DNA of 64,000 nt from Candidatus Methylomirabilis sp. (GTDB lineage Bacteria; Methylomirabilota; Methylomirabilia; Methylomirabilales; Methylomirabilaceae), in the NCBI RefSeq assembly GCF_028716865.1, contig NZ_JAQUOY010000002.1:1-64000 (forward strand). Direction: 5' to 3'. This document shows positions 19,002-35,800 of this stretch, piece by piece. The position numbers were made by a program, and so were the translations under genes. How positions within the stretch are numbered: the first letter of the stretch is position 1; every line of letters starts with the position of its first letter. Below the pieces are notes generated by a model. It was given only the letters and a program-made list of their open reading frames with translations, did not search any database and was not told the DNA's origin.

Positions 19002-19794
19002 GATTCTTTTCTGAATCGCAAGGCCCTGGGCCAGCTTCACCTTAGCCTATCGAAGTAAGACTTTGATGGCATCCACAAGATCTCTTGCTGCCTGAATCGC
19101 TTGCTCCGCAAGACTTGACGACAGGCTCTACCTTCCAGTCAAATAGCGCGGTAAGTCGCGACTTCCTTTTGCAGTCAGTCCCCCAGGCGGTCCTTCTCAA
19201 CCTCCAATCTAAAGCGCGTCTATAGTTGTGACTCTATCGATCCCCTGAGAGCTTTTTGAGGTGATTGCCAGGCGGCAGTCGTCGATCCTCAAACGACTCC
19301 GTCGCATCCTGGATGAGCAGCTTCCGCAGAGCCACGCGCTAAGCCTGCTCACGCCTGAAGATTCGCTCGGACGCTCGACCCCGAAGGCTTCGGATTATCG
19401 TACATCAATAATAAACGTGTCGAGACTGTAGTATCAAGCGGTTACAGGAGTGCGCCCACAAGGAATTGCCCTCTTCAGCAGGTGCCTTTGGCCTAGCGGC
19501 AAAATTTGCCCCACCTGATGGTATGGAAATAGCCGCTGTCCGATCTGACCAGTACCAAAAACAGGTCAGTCTCAGCATTGTCAATGAGTTAACAGCCTCT
19601 ATTGCCATTATTTCTTGTGGCACATAGCTTGCCTTAGTTTTCAATGATGATATCGGCAGGGAAGGATGCGAGGGTGCTGAGTAGGGACCCATAACGGCGT
19701 GATGTTTCCAACGGTTTCTCTGCCATCCACTGCAATGCAAAGTGACTAACCGAACAATAAAGGACGTGGCCCGCCATTGCGGCGCGTGACGACG
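19002..19794. other. Long noncoding region between csrA and the glycan island
   Basis: This 793-base stretch has no convincing gene. A 56-codon frame opens with GTG at 19261 and ends at 19431 but has unusual composition and no recognisable family. Another frame is open from about 19412 to the TAG at 19625-19627, lacks a credible start and may be a decayed gene end (late residues YQKQVSLSIVNEL). The clear signal is the sigma-54 promoter at 19618-19633, 161 bases before the first glycan gene. Base composition is lower in G+C than the flagellar genes on its left. Confidence 0.6.
19618..19633 (+). promoter_or_regulatory. Sigma-54 promoter upstream of the glycan island
   Basis: TGGCACATAGCTTGCC matches TGGCACR-N4-TTGC, with GG at 19619-19620 and GC at 19631-19632. 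It is the only strong promoter-like signal between csrA and rfbF and points into the glycan genes. The quality equals those before flgF, cheY and flgB, suggesting shared control with flagellar genes. Confidence 0.78.
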
Positions 19795-20565
19795 ATGAAA
19801 GCAGTTATTCTGGCTGGAGGAGGGGGTACGCGGCTGAGTGAGGAGACGGTCGGTCGCCCCAAGCCGATGGTAGAGATCGGGGGTAAACCGATTCTCTGGC
19901 ATATCATGAAGCTGTATTCAGCTCATGGCGTGAATGACTTCGTGATTTGCGTGGGCTATAAAGGCTATATGATTAAAGAGTATTTCGCCAATTATTTTCT
20001 GCACCGCTCTGATGTCACGATCGATTTGGCCCATAATCGCGTAGAAGTGCATCACAACCATGTCGAACCCTGGCGCGTGACCCTGGTGGACACGGGCGAA
20101 CAGACGATGACCGGCGGACGCTTGAAGCGTGTCGCCGACTATGTGCAAGATGAAGCGGCGTTTTACTTTACATATGGTGATGGGGTTGCTGATATCGACC
20201 TGTCCGCCGAGATGGCGTTTCATCGGACACATGGCAGGCTTGCGACTGTTGCGGCGGTCCAGCCGCCTGGACGCTTTGGAGCGCTCGATCTGGATCAAGA
20301 ACGAGTGTGTGGCTTTACAGAAAAGCCCCGTGGCGACGGAGGACGGATCAATGGCGGGTTCTTCATCCTCTCGCCGGAGGTTACGAAGCTGATAGAGAAT
20401 GACGCTACGATATGGGAAGGAAACCCGCTGGCTCGGCTTTCGGCTATGGGGGAACTGATGGCCTTTGAGCATCGCGGTTTCTGGCAGGCAATGGATACTC
20501 TGCGGGACAAATACTGTCTCGAAGAATTATGGGCAAGCGGCAAGGCGCCATGGAAAGCGTGGTAG
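19795..20565 (+). CDS. rfbF: Glucose-1-phosphate cytidylyltransferase
   Basis: RfbF makes CDP-glucose from CTP and glucose-1-phosphate, the first step to CDP-3,6-dideoxyhexoses. The 256-residue protein opens MKAVILAGGGGTRLSEETVG followed by RPKPMVEIGGKPILWHIM, the nucleotidyltransferase signature. Later parts include FYFTYGDGVADID and the TEKPRGDGGRINGGFFIL stretch common to cytidylyltransferases of this family. The ATG at 19795 is chosen on homology. Its end overlaps rfbG, so the two are translationally coupled. Confidence 0.95.
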   Translation: MKAVILAGGGGTRLSEETVGRPKPMVEIGGKPILWHIMKLYSAHGVNDFVICVGYKGYMIKEYFANYFLHRSDVTIDLAHNRVEVHHNHVEPWRVTLVDTGEQTMTGGRLKRVADYVQDEAAFYFTYGDGVADIDLSAEMAFHRTHGRLATVAAVQPPGRFGALDLDQERVCGFTEKPRGDGGRINGGFFILSPEVTKLIENDATIWEGNPLARLSAMGELMAFEHRGFWQAMDTLRDKYCLEELWASGKAPWKAW

Positions 20566-21713
20566 CGGATCGCACATTCTGGCAGGGAAAGAAGGTCTTG
20601 ATTACCGGCCATACCGGTTTCAAGGGAAGTTGGCTCTGTCTATGGCTGCATCTGCTGGGAGCCGAGACGACGGGTTTTGCGATGCCGCCACCTACATGCC
20701 CCTCCCTATTCGAGTTGGCCCACATCGACAATCTCATGACGGCTTCCATTATAGGCGATGTGCGCGACCCGGAACAGATTACCGCTGCGGTGCGAGTAGC
20801 GAGGCCAGAGATTGTCGTCCACATGGCCGCTCAGGCGTTGGTGCGGTATTCCTATGCAAATCCTGTAGAGACCTACACAACCAATGTCTTGGGTACGGTC
20901 AACGTACTGGAGGCGGTCCGACAGGTCGGCAGCGTACGCGTTGTAATCAATGTTACCAGCGATAAGTGTTACGAAAACCGTGGATGGTTATGGGGTTATC
21001 GGGAAGATGAATCCGTGGGCGGCTACGATCCGTACAGCAGCAGTAAGGGCTGTTCGGAGCTCATCTCTGCCGCCTACCGAAACGCGTTTTTCAAATCAGC
21101 CGAGTATGGTCGCCATGGCGTGGCGTTGGCTACAGTACGGGCGGGTAATGTGATCGGCGGCGGTGACTGGGCAGAGGATCGGCTTATTCCGGATACCCTG
21201 CGATCTTTCCTGGAGAGACGTCCGGCGAGCATTCGCAATCCTGAGGCGGTTCGACCATGGCAGCACGTACTTGAACCGTTAGGTGGTTATCTGATGCTTG
21301 CAAAGTACCTCTGGGAGGATGGAGCGGCGTTTGCTGAAGCGTGGAACTTCGGACCAGATGACGACGATGTCAGGGCTGTCGAGTGGGTCGTAGACCGTCT
21401 AGCCGGCTTATGGGGCGCAGATGCATCCTGGCGACTCGACGGTGACCCGCATCAGCCGCATGAAGCGCAGTACCTTAAGTTGGACTGCGCCAAAGCCAAG
21501 GCAAGGCTGGGTTGGCACCCCCGTTGGGGGTTGGAGCAGGCGCTGCAAAAGATCGTGCAGTGGTACCGAGCCTACCATGATCACGCAGATATGCGCACGG
21601 TGACGTTGACCCAGGTTGCTGCATACCTCGCATCTTCCGGGGATATGGTTTCTACCACCAAGAACCGACATGAATACAATCGAACTGAGACAGAACATAC
21701 TCGATTTAGTTGA
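20550..21713 (+). CDS. rfbG: CDP-glucose 4,6-dehydratase
   Basis: RfbG converts CDP-glucose to CDP-4-keto-6-deoxyglucose using bound NAD. About 387 residues. The Rossmann motif is [11 protein letters not shown], the catalytic Tyr-x3-Lys is in [11 protein letters not shown], and TSDKCYENR and [17 protein letters not shown] are hallmarks of this subfamily. An in-frame ATG at 20529 would add seven residues; ATG 20550 places the Rossmann motif at the usual distance. The gene overlaps rfbF and rfbH at its two ends. Confidence 0.95.
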
Positions 21714-22986
21714 GGTATACGCGAATCAGGTCTTTGCGGATCGGGACTTTATGCCCGGTATTACGCCGATACCGCCATCCGGCAAAGTCATCGGGGCAAG
21801 GGAATTGCAGTGCCTGGTTGACGCCTCTCTGGACGGTTGGCTGACTAGCGGCCGTTTCAACGATGCGTTTGAAAGGCGGCTTGCCGCATTTCTCGGAGTT
21901 AGGCACGTGCTGACGACGAATTCCGGATCATCCGCCAATCTGCTCGCATTGTCCGCGCTCACGTCTCCGAGGCTTGAAGAGCGGGCCATCAGGTCGGGCG
22001 ACGAGGTGATCACTGTGGCAGCCGGCTTCCCCACGACGGTCAATCCTATCTTGTTGCACGGCGCGGTGCCTGTGTTTGTGGACGTGCACATCTCCACCTA
22101 CAATATCGACCCTGAACAGATTGAGGCGGCGGTTTCGGAGAAAACCAAGGCCATCATGCTTGCCCATACCCTAGGGAATCCTTTTGAGCTGGGCGAGGTA
22201 CTGCGTGTAGCCAGGAAATATAACCTTTGGCTGATCGAGGACTGCTGCGATGCCCTTGGCTCAACATATGATGGTAAGCCGGTGGGCACCTTTGGTGACA
22301 TTGGCACGCTCAGCTTTTATCCTGCGCACCATATTACGATGGGCGAGGGTGGCGCAGTAGTTACCAGCAACGGATACTTGAAACCTATCCTTGAATCAAT
22401 TCGCGACTGGGGCCGAGATTGCTTCTGCGACCCCGGTAAGGACAACACCTGCGGCAAGCGTTTCAGTTGGCAGTGGGGTGACTTACCTTTCGGGTATGAC
22501 CACAAGTACACCTACTCCCACCTTGGCTATAACCTCAAGATTACCGATATGCAGGCAGCGATTGGTTTGGCTCAGTTGGATCGACTACCTGAGTTCATCG
22601 AGGCTCGTAAGCGCAATTTCCGCTATCTCAAAGAGCGATTGACCGGCCTCGAAGAGTTCCTGATCCTGCCGAGGGCAACGCCCGGAGCCGATCCCTCCTG
22701 GTTTGGTTTTCCGATCAGCCTACGCGAAGAGACCGGTGTGGACCGACTCGATATGATGAGATATCTCGATCAGCATAGAATCGGCACCAGACCGCTGTTT
22801 GCGGGCAACCTGACCCGGCAACCGTATTTCCAGGGGCGTCCATATCGAGTTATCCGCGAATTGGTCAATACCGACAGGATCACCGACCGGACCTTCTGGG
22901 TCGGTATATATCCGGGACTGGATCAGGCCCATCTGGATTATCTTGCAGAGAAGCTGGGACGATTCTTCGGGGTAAACGTCGCATGA
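21670..22986 (+). CDS. rfbH: CDP-6-deoxy-4-keto-glucose 3-dehydrase (E1), radical PMP/iron-sulfur enzyme
   Basis: RfbH (DdhC/E1) removes the C-3 hydroxyl, giving the 3,6-dideoxy sugar. The 438-residue protein has an aminotransferase fold, but the PLP-lysine is replaced by histidine in [12 protein letters not shown] (His220/His221). Cysteines 193, 251, 253 and 261 match the C-X57-C-X1-C-X7-C pattern that binds the [2Fe-2S] cluster in Yersinia E1. With the start at 21670 the numbering even agrees. These features separate it from ordinary sugar aminotransferases. The partner reductase (E3, DdhD) is not encoded nearby. Confidence 0.97.
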
Positions 22987-23585
22987 TATCAGATCGGCTG
23001 AACACAAAGCAGCCAACCATGGATGGTGTGTTCAAAACTATCGATACGGTCATTCCGGGTTGCGTGGAAATACGGCCCCATATTTACGAAGATAATCGCG
23101 GTCGGTTTGTGAAGGTGTGGAACCGACAAGTCTTTGTCGATGCGGGTCTTTACTCAGAGTATGCCGAGGAATTCTATTCCGTTTCTCGTTGTGGAGTGGT
23201 TCGAGGACTGCATTTCCAGTTGCCGCCGATGGATCACGTAAAGCTGGTTTACTGCGTGAGCGGACGGGTTCAGGATGCGGTGTTGGATCTGCGTCGGAAC
23301 TCCTTCACGTATGGCCGTTTTGCCTTAGTCGAACTGTCCGCCCAAGTCGGAAATATGCTCTACATTCCGAAAGGCTTGGCTCATGGTTTCTGTACACTGA
23401 GTGAGACGGCTACCATGGTCTATAAGGCATCAAGCGCGTATTCACCGGAGCATGACTGCGGCGTGTTATGGAGTTCCGCTGGTATTCCCTGGTCAATTAC
23501 CGATCCGATCCTATCCGATCGAGATCGGGCGCACCCTTCCTTTGGAGCGTTTGTCAGTCCTTTCGATGGCGAGGCTGCCGGATGA
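22983..23585 (+). CDS. RmlC-like nucleotide-sugar epimerase
   Basis: The 200-residue protein belongs to the dTDP-4-dehydrorhamnose 3,5-epimerase family of cupins. [27 protein letters not shown] with His77 as the likely base, [13 protein letters not shown], and [13 protein letters not shown] are all typical. In this cluster the substrate is expected to be a CDP-4-keto-3,6-dideoxyhexose, as with AscE of the CDP-ascarylose pathway in Yersinia. That is inference from context; a dTDP substrate cannot be excluded by eye. It overlaps the genes on each side by four bases. Confidence 0.82.
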
Positions 23586-24481
23586 AGATTCTTGTAACCG
23601 GTTCGACCGGCTTTCTTGGTTCCCATCTGATGCCGCACCTGCGCGATCGTGGGCATTGTGTGGGTTGTCTCGTGCATGACAACTCGACCCTCCAGCCGGA
23701 GCCGTCCGATCTTCCGACCTGGAGAGTTGGAGTAAACGGCTCCGGATTTTGCGAGGCGTTGACCGAGTTTATGCCGGACGTCGTCGTACATCTGGCCGCC
23801 CTGTATGTGGCCGAGCATCGATATGAGGATGTGGGGCCCTTAGTACAGGCTAATGTAGAATTCGGCGCATATCTGTTGGATGCCATGGGGGCAGCCGGTT
23901 GTGATGCTCTGGTCTATGCGGGCACCTCCTGGCAGCACTACCATGATCGCAACTACTGTCCGGTCAATCTCTACGCTGCGACCAAGCAGGCCTTCTCGAC
24001 TCTCGCGGAGTACTACTTGGACGCTGCCGGTCTGCGTCTCCTGGAACTCCACCTGTACGACAGCTACGGCGAGGATGACCCAAGAAACAAGCTGCTCAGT
24101 CGGCTCCAAGCTGCGGCCGAATCGAGCGATGAATTCGCCATGTCGGAAGGCGCACAACGACTCCACCTCGTCCATGTGGCAGATCTGGTTCGAGGTGTGG
24201 CGATGGCATGCGAGCAAGTACAGACGTTTAAGGCGGGGGAACGCCGTATCTATCGACTGCCATCAGCCAAGGCGGTTTCCCTGCGTGAGTTGGTAGCGAT
24301 GCTCAACGTCTCCGATCAATCTCATCCGGTGAGGGTACGTTGGGGTACACAGCCTTACCGCCGGCGCGAGGTATTTCAGCCTTGGGAAGGCGCAGAAGTT
24401 CTGCCAGGATGGCTGCCGGAGATTTCACTCGAAGGGGGACTGCGGCGCCTGCGTGGGGCTGGCAGCCGGGTTGCGAAGTAG
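23582..24481 (+). CDS. NAD(P)-dependent sugar epimerase/reductase, probable last step to a CDP-3,6-dideoxyhexose
   Basis: The 299-residue extended short-chain dehydrogenase starts [20 protein letters not shown] and has the catalytic YAATK (Tyr131, Lys135). ALVYAGTSWQHY and LHLVHVADLVRGVAMA are typical of sugar reductases of the AscF/RfbJ type. Position after rfbFGH and the epimerase suggests it reduces the C-4 ketone to give a sugar such as CDP-ascarylose. Which isomer is made cannot be read from sequence. ATG 23582 overlaps the preceding stop (ATGA); longer in-frame starts run into that gene. Confidence 0.78.
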   Translation: MKILVTGSTGFLGSHLMPHLRDRGHCVGCLVHDNSTLQPEPSDLPTWRVGVNGSGFCEALTEFMPDVVVHLAALYVAEHRYEDVGPLVQANVEFGAYLLDAMGAAGCDALVYAGTSWQHYHDRNYCPVNLYAATKQAFSTLAEYYLDAAGLRLLELHLYDSYGEDDPRNKLLSRLQAAAESSDEFAMSEGAQRLHLVHVADLVRGVAMACEQVQTFKAGERRIYRLPSAKAVSLRELVAMLNVSDQSHPVRVRWGTQPYRRREVFQPWEGAEVLPGWLPEISLEGGLRRLRGAGSRVAK

Positions 24482-24577
24482 TGGGCAGCTCGTACAGACA
24501 CCTTCATTCAACAACACACTGTGGGAGGCCGCCCGTTATGCGCGTCCCGCTTGAACCGGCATAAAAGGAAGCGACCC

Positions 24578-25636
24578 ATGCAAGCGCAGGTGAAACCAAG
24601 GATCAACCTGGAAAATCGAACCCCGCTGCAGGAGGTCATTCCCCTTTCTACCCCGTTCGTGTTGTTCATCGATCCGGACAGTACCTGTAATTTCCGATGT
24701 AAATTCTGCCCCACCGGAGACCGGGACCTGATCAAATCTACGGGACGTTGGCAGGGTCGGCTGGATTTCGAACTGTACAAGAAGGTCATCGACGATCTGA
24801 GCGAATTCGACAGGCCGCTCAAGGTGCTCCGTTTGTATAAGGAAGGCGAGCCCCTATTGCATACACGTTTCGCTGATATGGTGCGCTACGCCAAGGCAAG
24901 CGGCCACGTACAGTACATCGACACCACCACCAATGGCTACCTGCTCACACCGGACAGGGTGGCTCCAATCCTGGATGCGGGAATTGATCGCATCAACATC
25001 TCAGTGGACGGTATGTCGAGCGAACAATACTGGGAGTTCACCAGGACCCGGGTCGATTTCGACCAATTCGTCGAGAATATCCGATGGCTTTACGCGCACA
25101 AGGGTCACTGCGAGATCTGTGTGAAAATTCCGGGTGACTTCCTGTCTGCAGAGGAGCGGCAGCGGTTCTTCGATACCTTTGGCGACATTGCGGACCGGAT
25201 GTTCATCGAAAATGTCGCCCCCTGCTGGCCGAACTTCGATGTGGAGGAACGCGCCGGGGTTCAGATTACCAGAGGCATCTACGGCAATACGGTGCAGGAA
25301 GTTGCGGTCTGTCCCTATATCTTTTATTCCATGGCGGTAAACACGGATGGCACCGTAAGCCTTTGTTTCCTGGACTGGGCACGCGAACTCAGCATCGGCG
25401 ATGTCCGTATGCGATCACTGAAAGACATCTGGAACGGCGAACTCATGCACCAGCACCGGGTTGCCCACCTGCAAGGTCGTCGCAAAGACGATCCTACGTG
25501 TGCCGCCTGCGGCCAGTTGAGTCATTGTCTCCCGGACAATATTGATGCACACGTGGACACCATTTTGAAGAGAGTCACTGCGCAGGATTCATCAGAGTGC
25601 GGTTCATGGAAAACGACGAGTTACTTACAGAGATAG
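24578..25636 (+). CDS. Radical SAM protein with SPASM-like C-terminus (1)
   Basis: The 352-residue protein has the radical SAM cluster motif CNFRCKFC (Cys37, Cys41, Cys44) and conserved TTTNGYLL and INISVDG strands. A C-terminal set of cysteines includes VSLCFLDW, TCAACGQL and SHCLPDN, as in SPASM or twitch domains that hold extra iron-sulfur clusters. AAGGAAG precedes the ATG. The gene follows the sugar operon after a 96-base spacer. Radical SAM enzymes in glycan clusters modify sugars or peptides, but I cannot name the substrate. Confidence 0.85.
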   Translation: MQAQVKPRINLENRTPLQEVIPLSTPFVLFIDPDSTCNFRCKFCPTGDRDLIKSTGRWQGRLDFELYKKVIDDLSEFDRPLKVLRLYKEGEPLLHTRFADMVRYAKASGHVQYIDTTTNGYLLTPDRVAPILDAGIDRINISVDGMSSEQYWEFTRTRVDFDQFVENIRWLYAHKGHCEICVKIPGDFLSAEERQRFFDTFGDIADRMFIENVAPCWPNFDVEERAGVQITRGIYGNTVQEVAVCPYIFYSMAVNTDGTVSLCFLDWARELSIGDVRMRSLKDIWNGELMHQHRVAHLQGRRKDDPTCAACGQLSHCLPDNIDAHVDTILKRVTAQDSSECGSWKTTSYLQR

Positions 25637-25640
25637 TCAT

Positions 25641-26996
25641 ATGGATGAACTTTATCAAGAATACGAAAGGTTAATGTGCGAAGGTCGCGCCAGCGAACAC
25701 ATGCTGGATGCAGTTCTTCACGAATTGGCTAATAAACCGATTTATATCTACGGAGCGCTCGGGAGAACCGCCACACTTCTGATGTTACGGCTGAATGAGC
25801 TCGCCATTTCTATCAAGGGAGGGTTCGATAGGAGGAGCAGTAGCACCGTGACTAACGGGCTTCATTTCGCAGTAAAGCCGTCCGAGCAGGTATCCGAACT
25901 GTCCGAAGAAGATGTATTGGTTCTTGCGGCCGGTTCAGCGGAGTTATTTCGGTCGATGCAATTCGAGGTCAATAAGTTCTCAGCGGGAATAGGGCCTAAG
26001 ATCATCGATGGAAGAAAATTGACGTATGTCCTGCAAAACTTGCACTGCGCGAATCTGGCACGGGAAGAGAAGCATGAAAATCTCATGACATGCATTGGGT
26101 ATCATACAAAACCATTTAAATGCGAGTACTTCATGCGATTAACGGAACGGCTCGCCTCCAAAGAGATTCCTCAAGACATCAAGACCGATGGCTCCACATT
26201 CAACAGTGTCGGATATCTTATCGGCGAGTGGTGCAATCTCAAATGTGCCCAATGTTGCGAAGCGGTGCCGTATTTGGACAGCAAAGAAATGGTCTCGATC
26301 GATGAGATTGTTGCAGACCTGAAAAAACTAACGGCCTCCATCACGTTCTTACATAGATTGGATATCGTTGGCGGAGAGCCGTTTGCGCATAGGAATATCG
26401 CTGCGATCATTAAGGAAATCAGGAAACTGCCGGGCATCGGATATATCGCGGTGTTTACCAACGGAACTATCATGCCGTCCGACGAGTTGTGCGCAGCGTT
26501 GGCGTCTGAGCGGGTCATTGTCACGAATTCTGACTATAGTCAGAGTTTAAATGATGCACAGAAGAAGAAGATTAAAGACACAATTGAAAAGCTGAAGCGG
26601 CACGGCGTCCAAGTAGTGCAAATCGCCGATCGATATTGGTTTGACCTGATTCAATTTCAGCGCAATACAGTGAATGACCAGGAACTCGAAAAGAATTACA
26701 GGGATTGTTTTCTGGAAAGCTGTCGAAGACTGTACCGGGGAACGTTGTTTCACTGCGCTGTGCAGGCGAATGGGGTGAAGCTAGGCCGAATTCCGAAGAC
26801 GAATGTGGTCGAGCTGCATACGGCGTGCGCGGAAGAGATCCGACGGCAACTGGATGTCTTTGAAAGCGAGAGGTTTATCGAATCGTGTCGCTATTGTGCC
26901 TTGCCCATTGGAGCGAAAGAGGTGCAGGCGGCGTTACAATTGAAGGACGGTAAAATACGGACACGTCAGAAGCAACTCGATGCAAGTACGGTGTGA
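25641..26996 (+). CDS. Radical SAM protein fused to a Rossmann-like N-terminal domain (2)
   Basis: The 451-residue protein has an N-terminal alpha/beta region (about 28-130) beginning PIYIYGALGRTATLLMLRL, a nucleotide-binding-like Gly-rich turn. The radical SAM domain follows, with CNLKCAQCC (Cys198, Cys202, Cys205, extra Cys206), VGGEPFAHRN and FTNGTI. Late cysteines (SCRYCAL) may bind another cluster. The same N-terminal fold appears in the next gene and in the FkbM protein at 30562. Base composition is clearly richer in A+T than the flagellar genes, suggesting transfer. Function unknown. Confidence 0.78.
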   Translation: MDELYQEYERLMCEGRASEHMLDAVLHELANKPIYIYGALGRTATLLMLRLNELAISIKGGFDRRSSSTVTNGLHFAVKPSEQVSELSEEDVLVLAAGSAELFRSMQFEVNKFSAGIGPKIIDGRKLTYVLQNLHCANLAREEKHENLMTCIGYHTKPFKCEYFMRLTERLASKEIPQDIKTDGSTFNSVGYLIGEWCNLKCAQCCEAVPYLDSKEMVSIDEIVADLKKLTASITFLHRLDIVGGEPFAHRNIAAIIKEIRKLPGIGYIAVFTNGTIMPSDELCAALASERVIVTNSDYSQSLNDAQKKKIKDTIEKLKRHGVQVVQIADRYWFDLIQFQRNTVNDQELEKNYRDCFLESCRRLYRGTLFHCAVQANGVKLGRIPKTNVVELHTACAEEIRRQLDVFESERFIESCRYCALPIGAKEVQAALQLKDGKIRTRQKQLDASTV

Positions 26997-29145
26997 CCTT
27001 CCAACCTCATATGCCCCCACGTTGCTGTCCGCAGTTGTAGGACTTCAACCACGTGCTATCGCCGTCTATGGGCTGGGCGTTGTTGCCAAGACAGTCCTCG
27101 CAATTCTTGATGGTTTCAACGTCGTAGGCCTTATAGACAAGGATCCGGCAAACGTCGGCCGGATATTGTACGGTAAGGTCGTCCTGTCAGACTCGAGCGT
27201 CCGACGGCAGGGCGTTGATCTGATTATCATTGCGGCTTCGGATATCTACTGGCGCACGATCAGTGCGCGCATCGCCCCATTCTGTCGCTTGCACGGCATT
27301 CGCGTACTCTATATGGACGGTACGTTGGCGGCGTTGAGTGAAGTGTTGCCCACGCCTCCGGATATACATCAAAGGGCTTTCTCTGAGCTTGAGGGCTTGA
27401 TCGCGGAACACGAGGTCATTTCTTTTGACCTGTTTGAGACGCTTGTCGTTCGGGCCGCGACGAGATCCGATGACATACTCGAGACGGCAGTCTGGCGGAC
27501 TAAAAAGGAACTGGGGTATCAGGGTGACTTACTGTCGATACGAAAGGAAGCAGAGGAGGTGTGTTGCAAACAGTATGGACGATATGCATTCAACTTGGAT
27601 GCCGTCTATGGCTATATGAAAGAATCAATGGGCATATCGCATGCCATAGCTGACGCTCTGCAGCAGGCCGAAATTGCGATGGAGATCGCGCTATCTTCCC
27701 CAAGGGCAGCAATGATCAGCTTGCTGTCCCGCTGTCTCCGCAACGGGAAAACCGTATGTATACTGACAGACACGCACTTATCCAGGTCGATGATCGATAT
27801 GATTCTGAATCGATGTGCAATACCGACGGTCTCACATCTGGCAATATCGAGTGAGGAGGGCGCGTCGAAACACTCGGGGAAGCTCTTTGCCCACCTCCGG
27901 TCGATCTACCGGGGCCGCCGAATTCTTCATATCGGCGATGGAGAACATTCGGACGTGACGCGCGCAATCGAGCAGGGCATGAGGGCATTTCGCGTGTTAT
28001 CACCGCCTGATTTGTTTATCCGTTCCCGACTGAATCCTTTGTTGCGTGAGGCATGCACGACGCACGACGGTGTGCTCCTGGGAATGCTGGCGAGACGTCT
28101 GTTCGCCGATCCGTTTAGTTCCATGATCCACGGTGGACGGGTCCGGATCCATGACCTGCATCAATTCGGATACGTGTTTTTCGGACCATTGCTCCTGACC
28201 TGGCTCGCTTGGCTGATCCGGAATCTGCGGCGCCGTCCAGCGGACAAGTTGTTATTCCTTGCCAGGGAGGGCTATCTTCTGGTTCGGTTGTACAACTGGT
28301 TGAGAGCGGAGAAACAGTTACGAGACCTTCCGGAAGGGCTTTATTTCGCTACTTCTCGCCGCATGGCCGGGGTAGCCTCCCTGCGAACTGCTGAAGACGC
28401 GCTGGCTTTGCTCGATGACGACTACTCCGGGAGTTCCGAGGGATTATTACGCTTACGTTACGGGCTGAATGGTTCAGACGCTGCTGTGGACGACCACCTG
28501 GTGCATTCCGACCCAGAGGCTGTAGCGCTGGTGGAGCGTTATCTTGATGACATCCTGGCCAATGCCCGGGATGAACGGGAAGCATACCTGCGGTATGTCG
28601 GCGGTCTGGGCATAACCCGGGACAGCCGGATCGCAGTTGCCGACCTCGGGATCAAGGGTTCGATCCAAGATGCGTTGCAACGTATGCTCGGGAAGACGAT
28701 GCAGGGGTATTACATCACCGGCTGGTTCGGTTCTGATAACCCGTACGGCATGACAGACAATACCTCCGCCCTATTTCCCGGATCGCGAGGTGGCGAGCCC
28801 AGCCAAGTCTATCGTCACCACCTGTTGTCCGAGTCGGTACTTGTTGCACCGGAAGGCATGTATCTCCGGATTCGTGCGGACGGCAGTTTCATCAATGCGC
28901 TAGGCCATAAGAATCAGGAACTGTTTCATCATAAGATCGACATTCATGAAGGCATCCGTTCCTTCATCGTCGACTGGCTCATGACGGGCATCGAGCCGGA
29001 AGAAACCGAGCTGTCACTGCCACTAATCGATTCCCTCTATGGCCAGGCTTTGGCCGATAGCGTCGACATCGATGAAACGGTGAAGTCGGTATGCTACGTG
29101 GACGAAAGCTACCGCGCCGATACGGAGAAACGAATATGGGATTAA
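26980..29145 (+). CDS. HAD-superfamily COG5610-like protein with Rossmann-like N-terminus
   Basis: The 721-residue protein has three parts. Residues 25-120 form a Gly-turn alpha/beta region (AIAVYGLGVVAKTVLAIL). Residues 143-345 form a HAD domain with nucleophile Asp150 in SFDLFETLV, a LTDTHLS motif II and Asp320/Asp325 in GDGEHSD. The remainder (about 380-700) has KLLFLAREGYLLVRLY and ADLGIKGSIQDALQ, typical of large COG5610 proteins found in polysaccharide clusters. The reaction of this family is not established. It overlaps the preceding gene by 17 bases. Confidence 0.72.
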   Translation: MQVRCDLPTSYAPTLLSAVVGLQPRAIAVYGLGVVAKTVLAILDGFNVVGLIDKDPANVGRILYGKVVLSDSSVRRQGVDLIIIAASDIYWRTISARIAPFCRLHGIRVLYMDGTLAALSEVLPTPPDIHQRAFSELEGLIAEHEVISFDLFETLVVRAATRSDDILETAVWRTKKELGYQGDLLSIRKEAEEVCCKQYGRYAFNLDAVYGYMKESMGISHAIADALQQAEIAMEIALSSPRAAMISLLSRCLRNGKTVCILTDTHLSRSMIDMILNRCAIPTVSHLAISSEEGASKHSGKLFAHLRSIYRGRRILHIGDGEHSDVTRAIEQGMRAFRVLSPPDLFIRSRLNPLLREACTTHDGVLLGMLARRLFADPFSSMIHGGRVRIHDLHQFGYVFFGPLLLTWLAWLIRNLRRRPADKLLFLAREGYLLVRLYNWLRAEKQLRDLPEGLYFATSRRMAGVASLRTAEDALALLDDDYSGSSEGLLRLRYGLNGSDAAVDDHLVHSDPEAVALVERYLDDILANARDEREAYLRYVGGLGITRDSRIAVADLGIKGSIQDALQRMLGKTMQGYYITGWFGSDNPYGMTDNTSALFPGSRGGEPSQVYRHHLLSESVLVAPEGMYLRIRADGSFINALGHKNQELFHHKIDIHEGIRSFIVDWLMTGIEPEETELSLPLIDSLYGQALADSVDIDETVKSVCYVDESYRADTEKRIWD

Positions 29146-29260
29146 GCGCGAATGCCTTATTCCCCCATCTGTCGGCAAGCGTCCTTGGCGTCGAATCGCT
29201 TGCGCACTCGAACAGAGATAGGGTCAGGACGAGAGGCTCTTCAGAAATCGCAGCGGGCAA

Positions 29261-30565
29261 GTGACGGAGTTGACGTTGGTGTCGCTCCTACATATTACCG
29301 CGCATCTTGGCGGCGGTGTCGGCAAGGTGCTGGCATCCCTGGTGGCCGAATCCCAGCGTCGGCAGAGCGGCATTCGGCACACAGTGGCCTGTCTGGAAGC
29401 TCCGGAAAAATTTCAGTTTGCCGAACAGGTACAGGCACACGGAGGACACCTGCTGCTCTGCCCGACCAACCAGGAACTGGCAGGACAGATCCGCCAGGCC
29501 GATATCGTACAACTGGAATGGTGGCACCACCCGGTAGTTGCGGGTTGGATGTGCGCTGATGAGCTACCCCCGATGCGACTGGTCGTATGGAGTCATGTTT
29601 CTGGACTACATCCCCCCGAAATACCTCCCGCCTTTGTGGCGGCTCCGCATCGGTTTCTTTTTACCTCTCCCTGTTCCTGGGAACATCCACGCCTGGCAGC
29701 TCTTGAGCCAAAAGTGAGGCAACGGGTGGGTGTGGTGTATAGCTCCGGTGGTTTCCACGACTTACCAATACCATCTGCCCGCCATCATAACGGCTCGTTA
29801 CGGGTGGGCTATGTCGGTACTCTCAACTTCGCCAAGTTGCATCCACGCTTGATGGATTTCTTAGCGGCCGTCCGTTTGCCGAGCTTTCGCCTGGCCCTAG
29901 TGGGTGACCCTACCACTGGGACAGAGCTATTGACGAACGCGGCATCCACCGGGATCAAAGATCTAGAACTCCGTGGCTATCGGGCTGATGTCGCGAAAGA
30001 ACTAGCGGGTTTTGATGTGCTGGCGTATCTGCTCAATCCCCTGCACTACGGGACCACCGAGAATGCACTGCTGGAGGCCATGGCTATGGGTGTGGTGCCC
30101 ATTGTCTTGAATAACCCGGCGGAGCGTCATTTGGTCACCCACCTGGAAACCGGTATCGTGGTGGATGGGCCTGCAGCCTTTGCCGATGCACTGGACTGGC
30201 TGGCCGCTAATCCGGATGAACGCGCCAGGCTCTCAGCAAACGCCGCTCGCACGGCACGTGCACGCTTTGCCGTGGAGCGTACGGCCGACGGTTTGATGAC
30301 CCATTACCAGGCCGTTCTCAAGGAAGAAAAGCGATCGTACGATCTCCGGCCGGTCTTCGGCTGCGAGCCGGCCGACTGGTTTCGCGCGTGTCAGGGCGCT
30401 GAGGCCTGGCGCTTCTCCGACAGTGGCGCATCGAAGCGGCCGACCGGCTTCGTTCCCTCTTTTCTTTATGAACGAACCAAAAGTTCGGTATTCCATTACC
30501 GCGCGACCTATCCATCGGATGTCCGCCTGGCATACTGGGCGCAACGACTGACATCGGCACAATGA
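29261..30565 (+). CDS. Glycosyltransferase, family 4 type (GT-B fold)
   Basis: The 434-residue protein opens SLLHITAHLGGGVGKVLASL, the donor-side Gly-rich loop of GT-B enzymes. The C-terminal domain has LRVGYVGTLNFAKLHP, and the nucleotide-sugar-binding segment TTENALLEAMAMGVVPIVLN with its conserved glutamates. A 60-residue tail (about 375-434) is unlike the core. The start is GTG 29261; TTG 29270 is also possible. It overlaps the following FkbM gene by four bases. Donor and acceptor are unknown; the CDP-dideoxyhexose is a candidate. Confidence 0.83.
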   Translation: MTELTLVSLLHITAHLGGGVGKVLASLVAESQRRQSGIRHTVACLEAPEKFQFAEQVQAHGGHLLLCPTNQELAGQIRQADIVQLEWWHHPVVAGWMCADELPPMRLVVWSHVSGLHPPEIPPAFVAAPHRFLFTSPCSWEHPRLAALEPKVRQRVGVVYSSGGFHDLPIPSARHHNGSLRVGYVGTLNFAKLHPRLMDFLAAVRLPSFRLALVGDPTTGTELLTNAASTGIKDLELRGYRADVAKELAGFDVLAYLLNPLHYGTTENALLEAMAMGVVPIVLNNPAERHLVTHLETGIVVDGPAAFADALDWLAANPDERARLSANAARTARARFAVERTADGLMTHYQAVLKEEKRSYDLRPVFGCEPADWFRACQGAEAWRFSDSGASKRPTGFVPSFLYERTKSSVFHYRATYPSDVRLAYWAQRLTSAQ

Positions 30566-31728
30566 ATATCCGTGCGTTGCCGAATACGGCCGAGGCAATC
30601 CGACTTCTGTCGGAGTTGGCAACGCGCCGTAGCGAGATCAGCCCTCGCCCAGTGGATCGGCCTCTGGTACTGTACGGTGCCGGTAAGCTTGGACACTTGG
30701 CGGCCGATCTGTTTCGTCGACTCGGTATCCCCGTGGCCTATGCTCTGGACCGGTCTCCGACGGCCGGTGGTCGACTCCCAGGCGATATCCCGATCAGGAG
30801 ACTCGATGCAGTCAGACAGGCCGACCGAGACAGCCACATGGTAGCCGTATGTATTGTCAATGCTCCCTATAAGCCGATCCGAGCCGATCTTTCGGCCATG
30901 GGGTGGCGGCATATTTTTCCTGTATACGATCTCCTGGAGACCTATACCGATTACCTGCCAATGGGCAACGGTTGGTTCGCTGGTCGGCTTAACGGGGAAG
31001 ATATGAGCCGAACAAGCGCCGTGCTATCGGGTTGGAGCGACGACTGGTCCCGAGCGGCCCACCTCCAGTTTATGGCGTGGCGCTTGCATCGGGAGGAATG
31101 GTCTTTCCAGAACGCTCCCGTGCGTATTGACGACCGATATTTCATAGAGCCGGTCCGACCGGTCATGAATGAGAACGAATACTTTCTCGATGCAGGCGCC
31201 TATCACGGCGACATCGCAGATCGTTGGCTCAATATCATGGGGGGCCGGTTTCGCGCGATCCTTGCGGTAGAAGCTGACCGGGAGAATATTGTGCACTTGA
31301 GAGCTTGGGTAGCTTCACTTCCTGTCGAAATGAGCAGACGTATTCAGGTGCAGGATTGCGCATTGGCGGCTGAAAGCGGCATCCGATCATTCAGTCACGG
31401 GATGGACCTGGCTTCACGAATTGTGAATCAGGCTGATGGCAACGTACGAACCTGTCGATTGGATGATCTCAACTTCCCCGTCACGTACGGAAAAATCCAT
31501 CTGGAAGGAGGGGAGTTGGATGCGCTACGAGGCGGCCTGAATATCCTGCAACGCCAGCGCCCCATGCTGGCCGTTACCGTATATCACAATCAGGATGGGC
31601 TGTGGCGTACACCGACCTTCCTGATGGACACGCTACAGGATTATCGCTTTCTCATGCGCTTACATGCGTGGTGTGGGACTGGGGCCGTTCTCTATGCGAT
31701 TCCAAAGGAAAGGTGTTGCGCAGCATGA
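30562..31728 (+). CDS. FkbM-family methyltransferase fused to Rossmann-like N-terminus
   Basis: The 388-residue protein starts with a nucleotide-binding-like region (about 32-125; RPLVLYGAGKLGHLAADLF, YALDRSP). The C-terminal FkbM methyltransferase domain (about 205-380) has FLDAGAYHGD as the SAM loop, VEADREN, and KIHLEGGELDALRGG then AVTVYHNQDGLW. FkbM enzymes O-methylate sugars or polyketides, so methylation of the glycan is likely. It overlaps both flanking genes by ATGA, showing tight coupling. The N-terminal region resembles those at 25641 and 26980. Confidence 0.8.
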   Translation: MNIRALPNTAEAIRLLSELATRRSEISPRPVDRPLVLYGAGKLGHLAADLFRRLGIPVAYALDRSPTAGGRLPGDIPIRRLDAVRQADRDSHMVAVCIVNAPYKPIRADLSAMGWRHIFPVYDLLETYTDYLPMGNGWFAGRLNGEDMSRTSAVLSGWSDDWSRAAHLQFMAWRLHREEWSFQNAPVRIDDRYFIEPVRPVMNENEYFLDAGAYHGDIADRWLNIMGGRFRAILAVEADRENIVHLRAWVASLPVEMSRRIQVQDCALAAESGIRSFSHGMDLASRIVNQADGNVRTCRLDDLNFPVTYGKIHLEGGELDALRGGLNILQRQRPMLAVTVYHNQDGLWRTPTFLMDTLQDYRFLMRLHAWCGTGAVLYAIPKERCCAA

Positions 31729-32756
31729 TTCCCACGGTGAATGTTATTTTACCGACTATTCGATTTCTTCCCGTGACACGAGATATCATTCGCCACGTGG
31801 TGGGTACAGCCGAGGAGGCGACGGATATCCATGTGACCATCGCGGACGGACAGGAAGACGACCAGAAGAAAGAATGGATTATCCGCCAGACTAGAAATCT
31901 GGCGGAGGACGGCAAGTTTACCTATATCGGCCTCAAGGATGTGATGCAACGAACCTTACGCGCTGTCCAAGTGGAGGCGGAATGGATACTGCCGATCTCC
32001 GACGATGATCCCTATAGCGTCAATTTTATCCGAAGCATGTGCAGCGAATCTCGAACAGCCCCATCAGACACGATGGCCATTGTCCCCTCGACATACTTGA
32101 GTTATTCGCCCACTCAATTCAATCTATTTCGGTTGCAGAATATCGAAGAACAGGAACAAGGGGCGAGGCTGCTGGCCTTGTACAAACAGGCGCATCTCAA
32201 CGGTATCCTGACGTGGTCTGTGATACGTCGCAAGCCTTTTCTTGAATGGTTTGAGTTCCTGCGGACAAAGGCAATCTGGCCTACTTATGCCGATCAGTTA
32301 TTGGTCAGCTATCTTGCCATGAAGGGGAAAATTGTCACGGGTAAAGAGGAATCGTTTTACGCGAAAGATGAACGGGATTGGCACGACCCGAGACGGGCGA
32401 TCATCAAGGATTCAGGAAGTTACCCGGATAAATCTCTGGCATTATTTCATGAGATATTCTGGATCTCAGACCTCTTCACTTTTCTCCGATCCTACGGATT
32501 GGAAGATGCGGCCGTTCCATCTTTGACCTTCAGGGCAGCCGCGCTACTGACAGCAGGTGCTTCTGTTTTTGAGCATCGTCTTCGTGTGCTGGAAATCGAA
32601 CGGTCTCGAGAGAGTGAGGATGCGTATTCCCTTATTGTGAATTTGGCCTCGTATGTAAATGCGCTGGGCAAGGCGCCTATTGACGAACATATACGCTTCT
32701 TCATACAAGTCCAGCCAATGAGCCAGACATTGAGTATGCCGCTGATAGAAGCATAA
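31725..32756 (+). CDS. Probable family 2-like glycosyltransferase
   Basis: The 343-residue protein begins MIPTVNVILPTIRFL and has EAEWILPISDDDPYS, an acidic motif where GT-A enzymes bind the metal and nucleotide sugar. The middle (NGILTWSVIRRKPFLEWF, WPTYADQLLVSYLAMKG) and C-terminus are not recognised. The start overlaps the FkbM stop (ATGA). Composition is A+T-rich like its neighbour on the right. Family membership is tentative because the N-terminal strand pattern is diverged. Confidence 0.58.
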   Translation: MIPTVNVILPTIRFLPVTRDIIRHVVGTAEEATDIHVTIADGQEDDQKKEWIIRQTRNLAEDGKFTYIGLKDVMQRTLRAVQVEAEWILPISDDDPYSVNFIRSMCSESRTAPSDTMAIVPSTYLSYSPTQFNLFRLQNIEEQEQGARLLALYKQAHLNGILTWSVIRRKPFLEWFEFLRTKAIWPTYADQLLVSYLAMKGKIVTGKEESFYAKDERDWHDPRRAIIKDSGSYPDKSLALFHEIFWISDLFTFLRSYGLEDAAVPSLTFRAAALLTAGASVFEHRLRVLEIERSRESEDAYSLIVNLASYVNALGKAPIDEHIRFFIQVQPMSQTLSMPLIEA

Positions 32757-32802
32757 CGCCGTACCATACGATCTTGAAGAGAACTAAGAATTGGTTGTGA
32801 CA

Positions 32803-35800
32803 ATGTCGACAAGACCGACCGTATCGGTAATTGTTCCGTGCTACAAGCAAGCACATTTCCTACATGAATCTGTGGAGAGTGTCGTGGCGCAGTCCTTTCG
32901 TGACTGGGAATGCATCGTCGTGAACGACGGGAGCCCCGACGACGCGTCGAAAATCGTCCATGACTTAATTCGTACGTATTCAAATTGCAATATCCGGTTA
33001 GTGGAAAAGGAGAATGGGGGATTGTCCGATGCCCGCAATGCGGGTGTGCTGGCCTCACGGGGCAATTTTATTCTACCGCTTGACAGCGACGATAAGCTGA
33101 TGCCGGAATGCATCGAGCAGATGATATCTTTGTTAATGAAAGAATCTGATATTTCCATTGTCTATAGTGATCGTCAAGACTTCGGGATTGTTGAACGGTA
33201 TGTTGCAGCGGCAGAGTTTGATTTTTGTCGGTTAACTCAACAAAACCTGCCTAATTATTGTTCGTTGTACCGTCGTCGGGTCTGGGATGATGTTGGAGGA
33301 TACGATACCAGAATGGATTCATACGAAGATTGGAACTTCTGGATCGCAGCATGTAAAAGGGGTCATAGGGCCAAACGGATTCCGCGCGCCCTCTTTCATT
33401 ATCGCGTTAAAGCGCAAAGTATGTACACAGATGCACTGAAAAAGGATAAGCAACTGAAGGCCCAAATTGTCTTAAATCATCCCGAACTCTACTCCATTCA
33501 GACCGTCCATGCCGCGCAACAAAGCGTAGTAGGTAAAACCGTCGCGCGCCAAGCGTCTGCCGCTCAGAGCGATTCACGTCAGATCTCTCTTCAGAGGCGC
33601 GAGGAGTCCGAGGACACATCGCAGTCATCACGGCCAGGCGAACGCATGCGTCTGTTGCTGGTGGTCCATGGCTTTCCTCCCCAAAGGTTGGCCGGGACTG
33701 AGCTGTACACCTATGCCCTGGCGCAAGAACTGCGCAGTCGGGGCCATGACGTGTGCGTGCTGTATCCTGACTACAGCGGGGGCTCAGAGGAGGGGACCAT
33801 CGTTGAGGAGAGGTATGAGGGGTTAGAGGTGGCGCGCATTCACGTCAGGCCTGCAGACCTCATCAGTCAGTTCAATAATGAGCGGTTGCTGCCCCCGCTG
33901 AGGCAATACGTGTCACGTCTCAGACCGGATCTGGTCCACATCCAACATCTGATCGGCGTCTCGGCGGCTGCCGTTCAGGTGTTCAGGGAGCAAGGCCTTC
34001 CAAGCGTGATGACCATGCACGACGGATGGTTGATCTGCGAACAGTGCCACTTCTTGCAGCCTCATGGCGTCTACTGTAAGGATGGACCGGAAACTGTGGA
34101 CAAGTGTGTGCAGTGCCTTGTTGGACGGTACGGTTTAACGCTTCAATCGGAACAGACACCCAAGATCTTCTATACACTGGCTTTACGCCGACAGTGTCTG
34201 GAACAGACTGTCAGGTCTATCGATACGATTATTGTCCCATCTAAGTTCATGCGGCAGATGCTTAGCCGTCACAGGTTTGAACACCCTCGTGTTACCCTGT
34301 CGCCGCTGGGACTGCCCACCTTCGATGTGCTTCCGTGGATACCTCGTACTGATCGGCTACGATTCACCTTTTTGGGGAATATCTGCTTTACTAAAGGTGT
34401 GGATCTGGCAATCCACGCGTTCAATCGCATTGACCCGAAAACGGCACGGCTGGACCTCTACGGCCAGGTTCAAGATCCGGCGTATTTTAGGCGGGTCATG
34501 ACCGAGATCGAACCCCGGCATCAGGTGACATACCATGGGGCGTACAGTCCAGCCGACCTGGCGCGCATCCTGGCTGACACTGATGTTGCAGTCATCCCGT
34601 CGAGGAGCGAGCACTACCCGTGTATCGTTCGGGAATGCCTGCATGCAGGTGTGCCCGTTATTACCTCCAACGTTGGCGGTATTCCTGAGATTATTCAGGA
34701 CGGTGAGAACGGTCTACTCTTCGAGGCGGGCGACTCCGATGACTTGGCCAAAAAGCTCCGCGTGTTTGTCAGCGATCCCAACCGAGTAACGACCTTTCGC
34801 CGGAGCGTCCGTTCCGTGAGCACTATTCGAGAGAATGCGGATCAACTGGAAATAATTTACAGAGATGCCCTGACCAGGAGATCTTGCGCCGAAACAGGCA
34901 AGGTTACCGGCGCACAGACCTCACGGGTCGATATTAGCGCATGGCTCCGCCGGGCCGATGAATGTGCCGCTAGAGAAGACTGGGCTTCTGCGCATGATGC
35001 CCTCAGGGAGGCACATGACCAAGCCCAGGACGATCCGCAGATCATCGTTGCTCTCGGCAACGTTGCATTGCGATTAGGCAACGTCGAGGCAGCACGGCGT
35101 GAGTTCGTTAAGGCTACGGTGTTGGCGCCAGATTACGCGCCCGCGCATGGTAACCTGGCTGCCGTACTACTGCGCCTAGGCTGCGCCGAAGAGGCCGAAG
35201 CATCGGCGCGCCGGGCGCTGGCACTCAACCCCCACGATACCGATGTTCTGAAGGTCCTGGCCCGCGTCTGCCTCGACAGCGAGCGTTATACTGAGGCAGT
35301 TCAAGCTTACAGCACCATTCTACAGGAGAACCCGAATGATGTAGAAACCCTCCTCGTTGTGGGGAATTGTTACGCCGAGGCTGGACGCCCGGAGGATGCC
35401 AAACGTTTCTACCAGCGGGTGCTGCAACTCAATTCGGGCAATACGGTCGCCGCCGAGAATCTGGCCGCCATAAGCGGGAACAGAGACGCTTCAGATAGTG
35501 TCACCCTGAGAGCCGACAGACTGTCGAAAGATCCCGAGACGTTGAGTGGGGCGAGATCTATCTCTCATGAACCACTCGTGTCCATCGTGATCGTCACTTA
35601 CAATTCAGTCCGCACCATCCGGGCCTGTCTGGAGAGCGTCTTCAGCTCTACCCGATCCCCCCTCGAGCTAATTGTGGTAGATAATGCCTCCACCGATGCG
35701 ACGCGCGCCGTCCTGGCGGAATACCAGGGCCGCATTACCGTGCTGGTGAACGCTGAAAACGCCGGGTTCTCGCGGGGTTGCAACCAGGGGATCCGTGCCT

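Follow-up and report, generated by a model that had tools for sequence, protein, structure and literature searches.

The first ~90-95 residues of three proteins encoded in a glycan gene cluster of Candidatus Methylomirabilis sp., namely a radical SAM protein, a HAD/COG5610 protein and an FkbM-type methyltransferase, are confirmed by profile comparisons to be one homologous Rossmann domain. The genes lie in a 64,000-nucleotide stretch (contig NZ_JAQUOY010000002.1, positions 1 to 64,000 of the forward strand), referred to here as the window. The domain is not special to this locus; it recurs on dozens of enzyme types in the surface-sugar clusters of other bacteria. On balance, we favor reading it as an accessory Rossmann module that here probably binds cytidine nucleotides or cytidine diphosphate (CDP)-sugars and would serve substrate delivery to, or regulation of, glycan-tailoring enzymes.

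A Rossmann domain common to three enzymes

The initial annotation had proposed the same Rossmann-like N-terminal domain on these three enzymes, and the three open reading frames (ORFs; starting at 25641, 26980 and 30562) were found at the coordinates it gave:

25641..26996, + strand: radical SAM protein, 451 aa; N-terminal Rossmann domain, radical SAM core and C-terminal auxiliary cysteines C356, C372, C416 and C419
25719..25994, + strand: Rossmann domain of the radical SAM protein, residues 27-118; glycine loop and D63 conserved
26980..29145, + strand: HAD/COG5610 protein, 721 aa; N-terminal Rossmann domain, predicted CrpP-like HAD phosphatase and CriT-like ribofuranosyl-5-phosphate transferase dependent on phosphoribosyl pyrophosphate (PRPP)
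27037..27309, + strand: Rossmann domain of the HAD protein, residues 20-110; Y30, G31, G33 and D53 invariant in six homologues
30562..31728, + strand: FkbM-type methyltransferase, 388 aa; N-terminal Rossmann domain and FkbM methyltransferase
30643..30927, + strand: Rossmann domain of the FkbM protein, residues 28-122; G39, G41, G44 and D63 conserved

The catalytic parts behind this one common domain (radical SAM, HAD/CriT and FkbM) are unrelated, as had also been proposed. The radical SAM protein matches Pfam Radical_SAM (PF04055; 2.3e-11, above the cut-off), with an invariant CX3CX2C motif (C198/C202/C205) and an invariant GGEP at residues 244-247; among 13 relatives the four C-terminal cysteines are invariant together with CX3CX2C. 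The FkbM protein matches Methyltransf_21 (PF05050; 2.2e-6, 28.4 bits vs a gathering threshold of 22.7) and, through its catalytic part, the FkbM structure 2PY6 (2.5e-10). The HAD/COG5610 protein is a predicted two-enzyme protein, with a transferase part as well as a phosphatase.

The domain begins within the first 20-30 residues of each protein. The glycine-loop pattern on which the proposal drew is shared by all three, but the radical SAM copy has one extra loop residue (YGALGRTA). Direct BLASTP comparisons among the three N-termini are not significant, the best being radical SAM vs FkbM at E=0.013, so the motif spotted by eye proves nothing on its own. Plasmids and genome samples supplied homologues of each protein, whose N-domains were cut out and aligned per enzyme; these alignments are small and some loci feed more than one of them. 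When the resulting profiles were compared using hhalign, radical SAM matched FkbM at 98.5% (E=2.9e-15), HAD matched radical SAM at 96.8% (E=2e-10) and HAD matched FkbM at 94.2% (E=1.1e-7), the reciprocal matches spanning 74-85 columns. Control profiles of the HAD core and radical SAM core gave <3% against the domain profiles, and FkbM's own catalytic Rossmann fold gave <1%. An extended short-chain dehydrogenase/reductase (SDR; sugar-epimerase) Rossmann profile reached 0.2%, 30% and 67%, restricted to the first 30-38 columns.

Leave-out searches with hidden Markov models (Z=2500) gave the same picture. Profiles built with one enzyme family left out recover the omitted window member (HAD, 1.8e-6; radical SAM, 1.8e-4; FkbM, 5.9e-8), and a profile without any window sequence finds all three (HAD, 8.7e-12; radical SAM, 3.3e-7; FkbM, 4.8e-6), with no fourth window ORF among the matches listed. 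A 19-member profile matches the radical SAM copy at 1e-16 and the FkbM copy at 7e-19; run against the whole genome of the organism it picks out exactly the three window proteins at E<=1, all three being in its training set. A direct link is provided by Nonomuraea, where the domain preceding a radical SAM protein was first matched by the FkbM N-domain query.

That three independent NAD-like domains look alike simply through their fold is highly improbable. Besides the BLASTP result, such generic similarity could account for the drift of the large profile to Rex, acetyltransferases and dehydrogenases at E values of ~1e-7 to 1e-4. It was already disfavored, however, by reciprocal matches at 94-99% over a length that the SDR control, confined to ~38 columns at 67% or less, did not approach, by the near-zero score of the FkbM catalytic Rossmann fold, and by the success of the leave-one-family-out searches. 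The profile pairs, controls and leave-out searches thus indicate a shared domain that forms a specific group within Rossmann folds, beyond the fold alone.

Two candidates were rejected. At E=9e-5, the Gfo/Idh/MocA protein L046:16078-17097, an ordinary dehydrogenase, marks the false-positive level of the 19-copy profile. The only match in the HAD-protein search of genome contigs (L002) is a FliD-like gene, matched by chance via the peptide IDKDPANV.

Domain family and partner enzymes

The domain belongs in the PglD_N/CoA_binding_3/Rex neighborhood. Searched against the PDB, a profile of 93 copies matches 3NKL (uridine diphosphate (UDP)-quinovosamine 4-dehydrogenase; 2.5e-13), Rex (2.1e-11), 2g6t (1.4e-6; given in the PDB listing as an HI1244 homologue, and which we take to be CAC2185), VioB (5.2e-6), WbaP (8e-5, residues 145-231), PglB/PglD (5e-4 to 1e-3) and mycarose C-methyltransferase (0.003). 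The 19-copy profile matches 3NKL (2.8e-8), Rex (2.6e-5) and, weakly, the N-terminal region of FkbM 2PY6 (0.028, residues 53-139). Searches with each domain singly did not resolve into separate known families: the radical SAM and FkbM profiles are each best on 3NKL, with Rex among the next, and the HAD profile gives a weak Rex match and no other. In a Pfam scan of the window proteins none of the three domains matched above cut-off. Among the 93 copies at E<=0.01, PglD_N is matched by 29, Methyltransf_14 by 21, CoA_binding by 15 and C2185-like_N by 13. The first glycine of the loop is conserved in 95% of 111 copies, the second in 86% and the third in 56%; the strand-2 Asp, corresponding to D63 (radical SAM), D53 (HAD) and D63 (FkbM) in the window, is conserved in 95%. 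The glycine loop and this Asp are kept in all the larger partner groups.

The known families resemble the module in part. PglD_N (PF17836), the N-domain of NeuD/PglD/VioB acetyltransferases, shares its fold class, glycine loop, strand-2 Asp and spacing. One relative, L075:4216-5577, passes the PglD_N gathering threshold (24.4 vs 23.4 bits), which none of the three window domains reaches, and PglD_N proteins carry a hexapeptide (left-handed beta-helix) acetyltransferase whereas the window proteins carry radical SAM, HAD/CriT or FkbM. CoA_binding_3, the domain of unknown function (DUF) PF13727 of WbaP-type phosphoglycosyl transferases, WbpM-type dehydratases and 3NKL, has Rossmann-core similarity and a glycan-biosynthesis setting in common with the module. 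The PF13727 model is absent from the Pfam matches of the window proteins and domain relatives, and WbaP-type proteins have a transmembrane bundle that the window proteins lack. Methyltransf_14 (PF08484) is likewise a Rossmann appendage on methyltransferases, but it is C-terminal to a class I sugar C-methyltransferase (e.g., D-mycarose 3-C-methyltransferase), whereas in the window the module stands at the N-terminus of other enzymes and falls below the Methyltransf_14 cut-off. Rex-type NAD(H) repressors have an N-terminal DNA-binding domain; the three window proteins have no helix-turn-helix (HTH) region in front. The two-domain FkbM architecture is probably already solved as 2PY6, since the profile matches both its parts; no paper was found on the role of the 2PY6 N-terminal region.

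Distribution was analyzed in 399 Bacillota genomes (one phylum) plus chance finds, a strict match being one at E<=1e-8. At least 31 of the 399 genomes have a strict match, a lower bound because up to 12 candidates per genome were scored. The collected loci contain 117 domain-bearing proteins, 111 of them with enough partner sequence to be sorted into ~38 partner groups. By Pfam (n=108), the partners include GT2 (22), radical SAM (13), FkbM (12), GT4 (9), other methyltransferases (~8), CDP-glycerol-type transferases (3), cytidylyltransferases (3) and singles such as WbsX and GT9. Relatives of the HAD and radical SAM proteins occur together in 3 of the 399 genomes (6 and 7 carriers; p=6.5e-5), 12-17 kb apart in two of them. 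Searches of viral contigs found two domain-bearing radical SAM proteins (L082, L083); no HAD or FkbM protein carrying it turned up there.

Domain copies show a strong tendency to occur near one another: of the 90 strict matches, 74 have another no more than 15 kb away, with ~3 expected at random. In one genome, G457 (L063/L075/L076), a single region encodes at least 12 proteins with the domain, N- and C-terminal placements being mixed; among them are a HAD-CriT protein, a radical SAM protein and two FkbM proteins. Such clustering would be expected if the copies on the enzymes of one cluster paired mutually or with a hub, holding together a glycan-assembly complex; in addition, the related DUF of WbaP provides the main dimer contact of that enzyme (PMC10942596). 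We nevertheless regard docking or scaffolding as rather doubtful. In 48 of 111 cases the nearest relative of a domain copy is joined to the same type of partner (shuffled mean 7.7), and in 11 of 111 it comes from the same genome (shuffled mean 4.5), so the domain mostly travels with its enzyme, which is mildly against the locus-specific docking code that assembly into one complex, as suggested in the initial annotation, might use. Furthermore, the ligand-loop residues are conserved, and the profile match to WbaP stops at residue 231, before the apex (Ser259) of the dimerizing, dimer-swapped hairpin.

Three further proteins were noted in the course of these searches. The G457 region encodes a predicted methyltransferase-cytidylyltransferase fusion with the domain in the middle. 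Contig C4 of the organism's own genome encodes, away from the flagellar cluster, a class I methyltransferase (L199:1403-2611) bearing a member of the wider domain family at its C-terminus. In a congeneric genome, a short protein (L179:1474-2055) consists of a winged-helix-like (HTH) DNA-binding region joined to the domain and is possibly a regulator of a glycan cluster.

Proposed function of the module

The favored reading is that one accessory module of the PglD_N/CoA_binding_3/Rex kind has been joined repeatedly to enzymes that build or decorate surface glycans. Its glycine loop would hold phosphates and its strand-2 Asp would hold ribose. In Pcryo_0637, of the PglD family, the corresponding domain serves as the platform for UDP, with Asp40 in contact with the ribose hydroxyls (PMC8040287). 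Since the loop and the Asp are conserved on every larger partner type, ligand binding appears to have been kept, which favors a nucleotide-binding accessory module; the nucleotide binding suggested earlier fits these residues and the nearest solved relatives, and is likely. The ligand at the window locus would most likely be a cytidine nucleotide or CDP-linked sugar because the activated-sugar genes there are the CDP-glucose 3,6-dideoxyhexose set (RfbFGH). The module might bring a nucleotide-bearing substrate to the catalytic domain, or let the nucleotide regulate it. The partners would be catalytic domains that do not themselves bind that nucleotide, i.e., a radical SAM enzyme, a PRPP-dependent ribofuranosyltransferase/phosphatase and an S-adenosylmethionine-dependent methyltransferase, and the three enzymes presumably tailor the flagellin glycan.

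Several observations weigh against this reading. In the HAD group the third glycine is replaced by T or A, and the second conserved Asp of PglD, which anchors uracil, is K or R in the window copies. AlphaFold models are unusable in the domain, the predicted local distance difference test score (pLDDT) being <50 over residues 30-131 of the radical SAM model and 34 in a single-sequence model of the HAD protein. The nearest relatives bind differing ligands (a UDP-sugar, uridine nucleotides or NAD(H)), so homology does not indicate which one to expect here. Finally, it is not obvious why the partners should all need to bind a nucleotide, because many of them are glycosyltransferases with a donor site of their own.

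Alternatively, the module could be an allosteric sensor that tunes each enzyme to the nucleotide or redox state by binding nucleotides or NAD(H). Rex is a known sensor of this kind, and it is the second-best PDB relative of the 93-copy profile; the short HTH-plus-domain protein of the congeneric genome would fit as well. A similar role was proposed for the WbaP DUF, which in isolation is stabilized by uridine monophosphate (UMP), UDP and uridine triphosphate, and UMP inhibits WbaP (PMC10942596). It would be redundant, however, for as many as a dozen enzymes in one pathway each to have its own sensor, and this alternative is considered unlikely. It is also conceivable, although we would not expect it, that a single promiscuous nucleotide-binding module, present on most transferases and tailoring enzymes of certain bacterial glycan-assembly lines, acts as a pathway-wide recognition tag, either for a glycan on a nucleotide-linked carrier or in a nucleotide-gated complex, an arrangement not previously described.

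The fold and several relatives of the domain are already known, one enzyme at a time. Searches of the open literature, one of them narrow, found no paper on a module that recurs on many enzymes within a single glycan cluster, and none describing the role of the domain on enzymes of surface-sugar clusters. If the module binds a common ligand, it would reveal what these enzymes share and could help to find or engineer surface-glycan pathways and to work out which substrates orphan radical SAM and FkbM enzymes act on.

The HAD protein and the flagellar glycan island

The HAD protein is better described, from its alignment with Bcs3, as a putative CrpP-CriT-type PRPP-dependent ribofuranosyltransferase plus phosphatase. 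Its two catalytic parts are:

27409..28029, + strand: CrpP-like HAD phosphatase part, ~residues 144-350; D150 opposite Asp386 of Bcs3 CrpP
28132..29142, + strand: CriT-like PRPP-dependent transferase part, ~residues 385-721; aligned to the Bcs3 CriT catalytic region

A profile of the HAD protein matches Bcs3 residues 382-863 at E=6.2e-41. The CriT part of Bcs3 moves ribofuranose-5-phosphate from PRPP and CrpP is a phosphatase (PMC10299916); the same PRPP ribofuranosyl chemistry was demonstrated for Cj1432 (PMC12096443). Bcs3 (the Haemophilus type b capsule polymerase), Cj1432 (Campylobacter) and the window protein all have a HAD phosphatase followed by a PRPP-dependent ribofuranosyl-5-phosphate transferase but differ in front, where Bcs3 has the CroT polymerase, Cj1432 a GT4 and the window protein the Rossmann module. 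The HAD nucleophile, Asp150, is invariant in homologues. AREG (E430) is opposite SRD680G of Bcs3 and D555 is opposite E818, a conservative version of the PRPP-site acidic pair; for the SR motif of that site the window protein has SRR. The residues at the Bcs3 R712 and T825 positions differ, and Brachyspira homologues have N at the 818 position; the activity of the CriT part is thus put forward as probable, some of its residues not being kept. The same three-part architecture is found in Paenibacillus (L046) and Brachyspira (L045, L047). The fusion is not general in the genus, since same-genus relatives (L004-L012) have the HAD-CriT part and no Rossmann domain, most being fused, as judged by eye, to rhamnan-synthesis-F-like parts.

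The three genes are part of a glycan island that sits between two groups of flagellar genes, FlgI, FlgK, a flagellin-like protein and FliW upstream (up to 18159) and flagellin, FliS and FliD downstream (from 45737). Besides the three genes, it includes:

19777..24481, + strand: CDP-sugar genes RfbF, RfbG, RfbH, RmlC-like epimerase and SDR; start of the island
24521..25636, + strand: second radical SAM/SPASM protein, without the Rossmann domain
29261..30565, + strand: GT4 glycosyltransferase, without the Rossmann domain, between the HAD and FkbM genes

The order is CDP-sugar set, radical SAM/SPASM (24521), radical SAM, HAD, GT4 and FkbM, followed by further glycosyltransferases. The radical SAM and HAD genes overlap by 17 bases and the GT4 and FkbM genes by 4 bases, which suggests a single operon. 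NCBIfam equivalog cut-offs are passed by glucose-1-phosphate cytidylyltransferase (RfbF), CDP-glucose 4,6-dehydratase (RfbG), RfbH and RmlC; the SDR gene was assigned by Pfam. RfbFGH chemistry makes CDP-4-keto-3,6-dideoxyhexose first and then the 3,6-dideoxy sugar. None of the cluster genes examined was recognized as encoding an RfbI-like reductase; this search did not extend to the remainder of the genome. With RfbF-RfbG-RfbH encoded inside a flagellar locus, flagellin is predicted to carry a CDP-derived 3,6-dideoxyhexose; its glycan in this organism would then contain that sugar, made via the CDP pathway, and a ribofuranose from PRPP.

Two features downstream of the FkbM gene are also noted. 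The glycosyltransferase-like ORF 31602-32756 is listed with a GTG start that overlaps the FkbM gene by 127 bases; a likelier start is the ATG at 31725, in an ATGA overlap with the FkbM stop. After the cluster, 32791-38007 encodes a protein of 1738 residues that combines several glycosyltransferase regions with a tetratricopeptide repeat (TPR) region.

A matching cluster is carried by plasmids pBHWA1 and pBHZ375 of Brachyspira hyodysenteriae. Both have rfbF (55% identical), rfbC, an epimerase, a glycosyltransferase and radical SAM/SPASM proteins (up to 52%, the identity of the window protein 24521..25636 to a pBHWA1 protein), and rfbG is also present on pBHZ375. On both plasmids a domain-bearing radical SAM gene adjoins a gene for a 711-residue domain-bearing HAD (CrpP-CriT) protein. 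The Brachyspira cluster differs from that of the window in being plasmid-borne, in having several extra radical SAM/SPASM paralogues, and in that no FkbM relative was found in it. Part of the plasmid block is absent from less pathogenic strains, while its HAD-annotated genes and some of its radical SAM genes are present in most of them (PMC4267127). The matching Brachyspira set (L045, L047) suggests that this type of glycan cluster moves between phyla.

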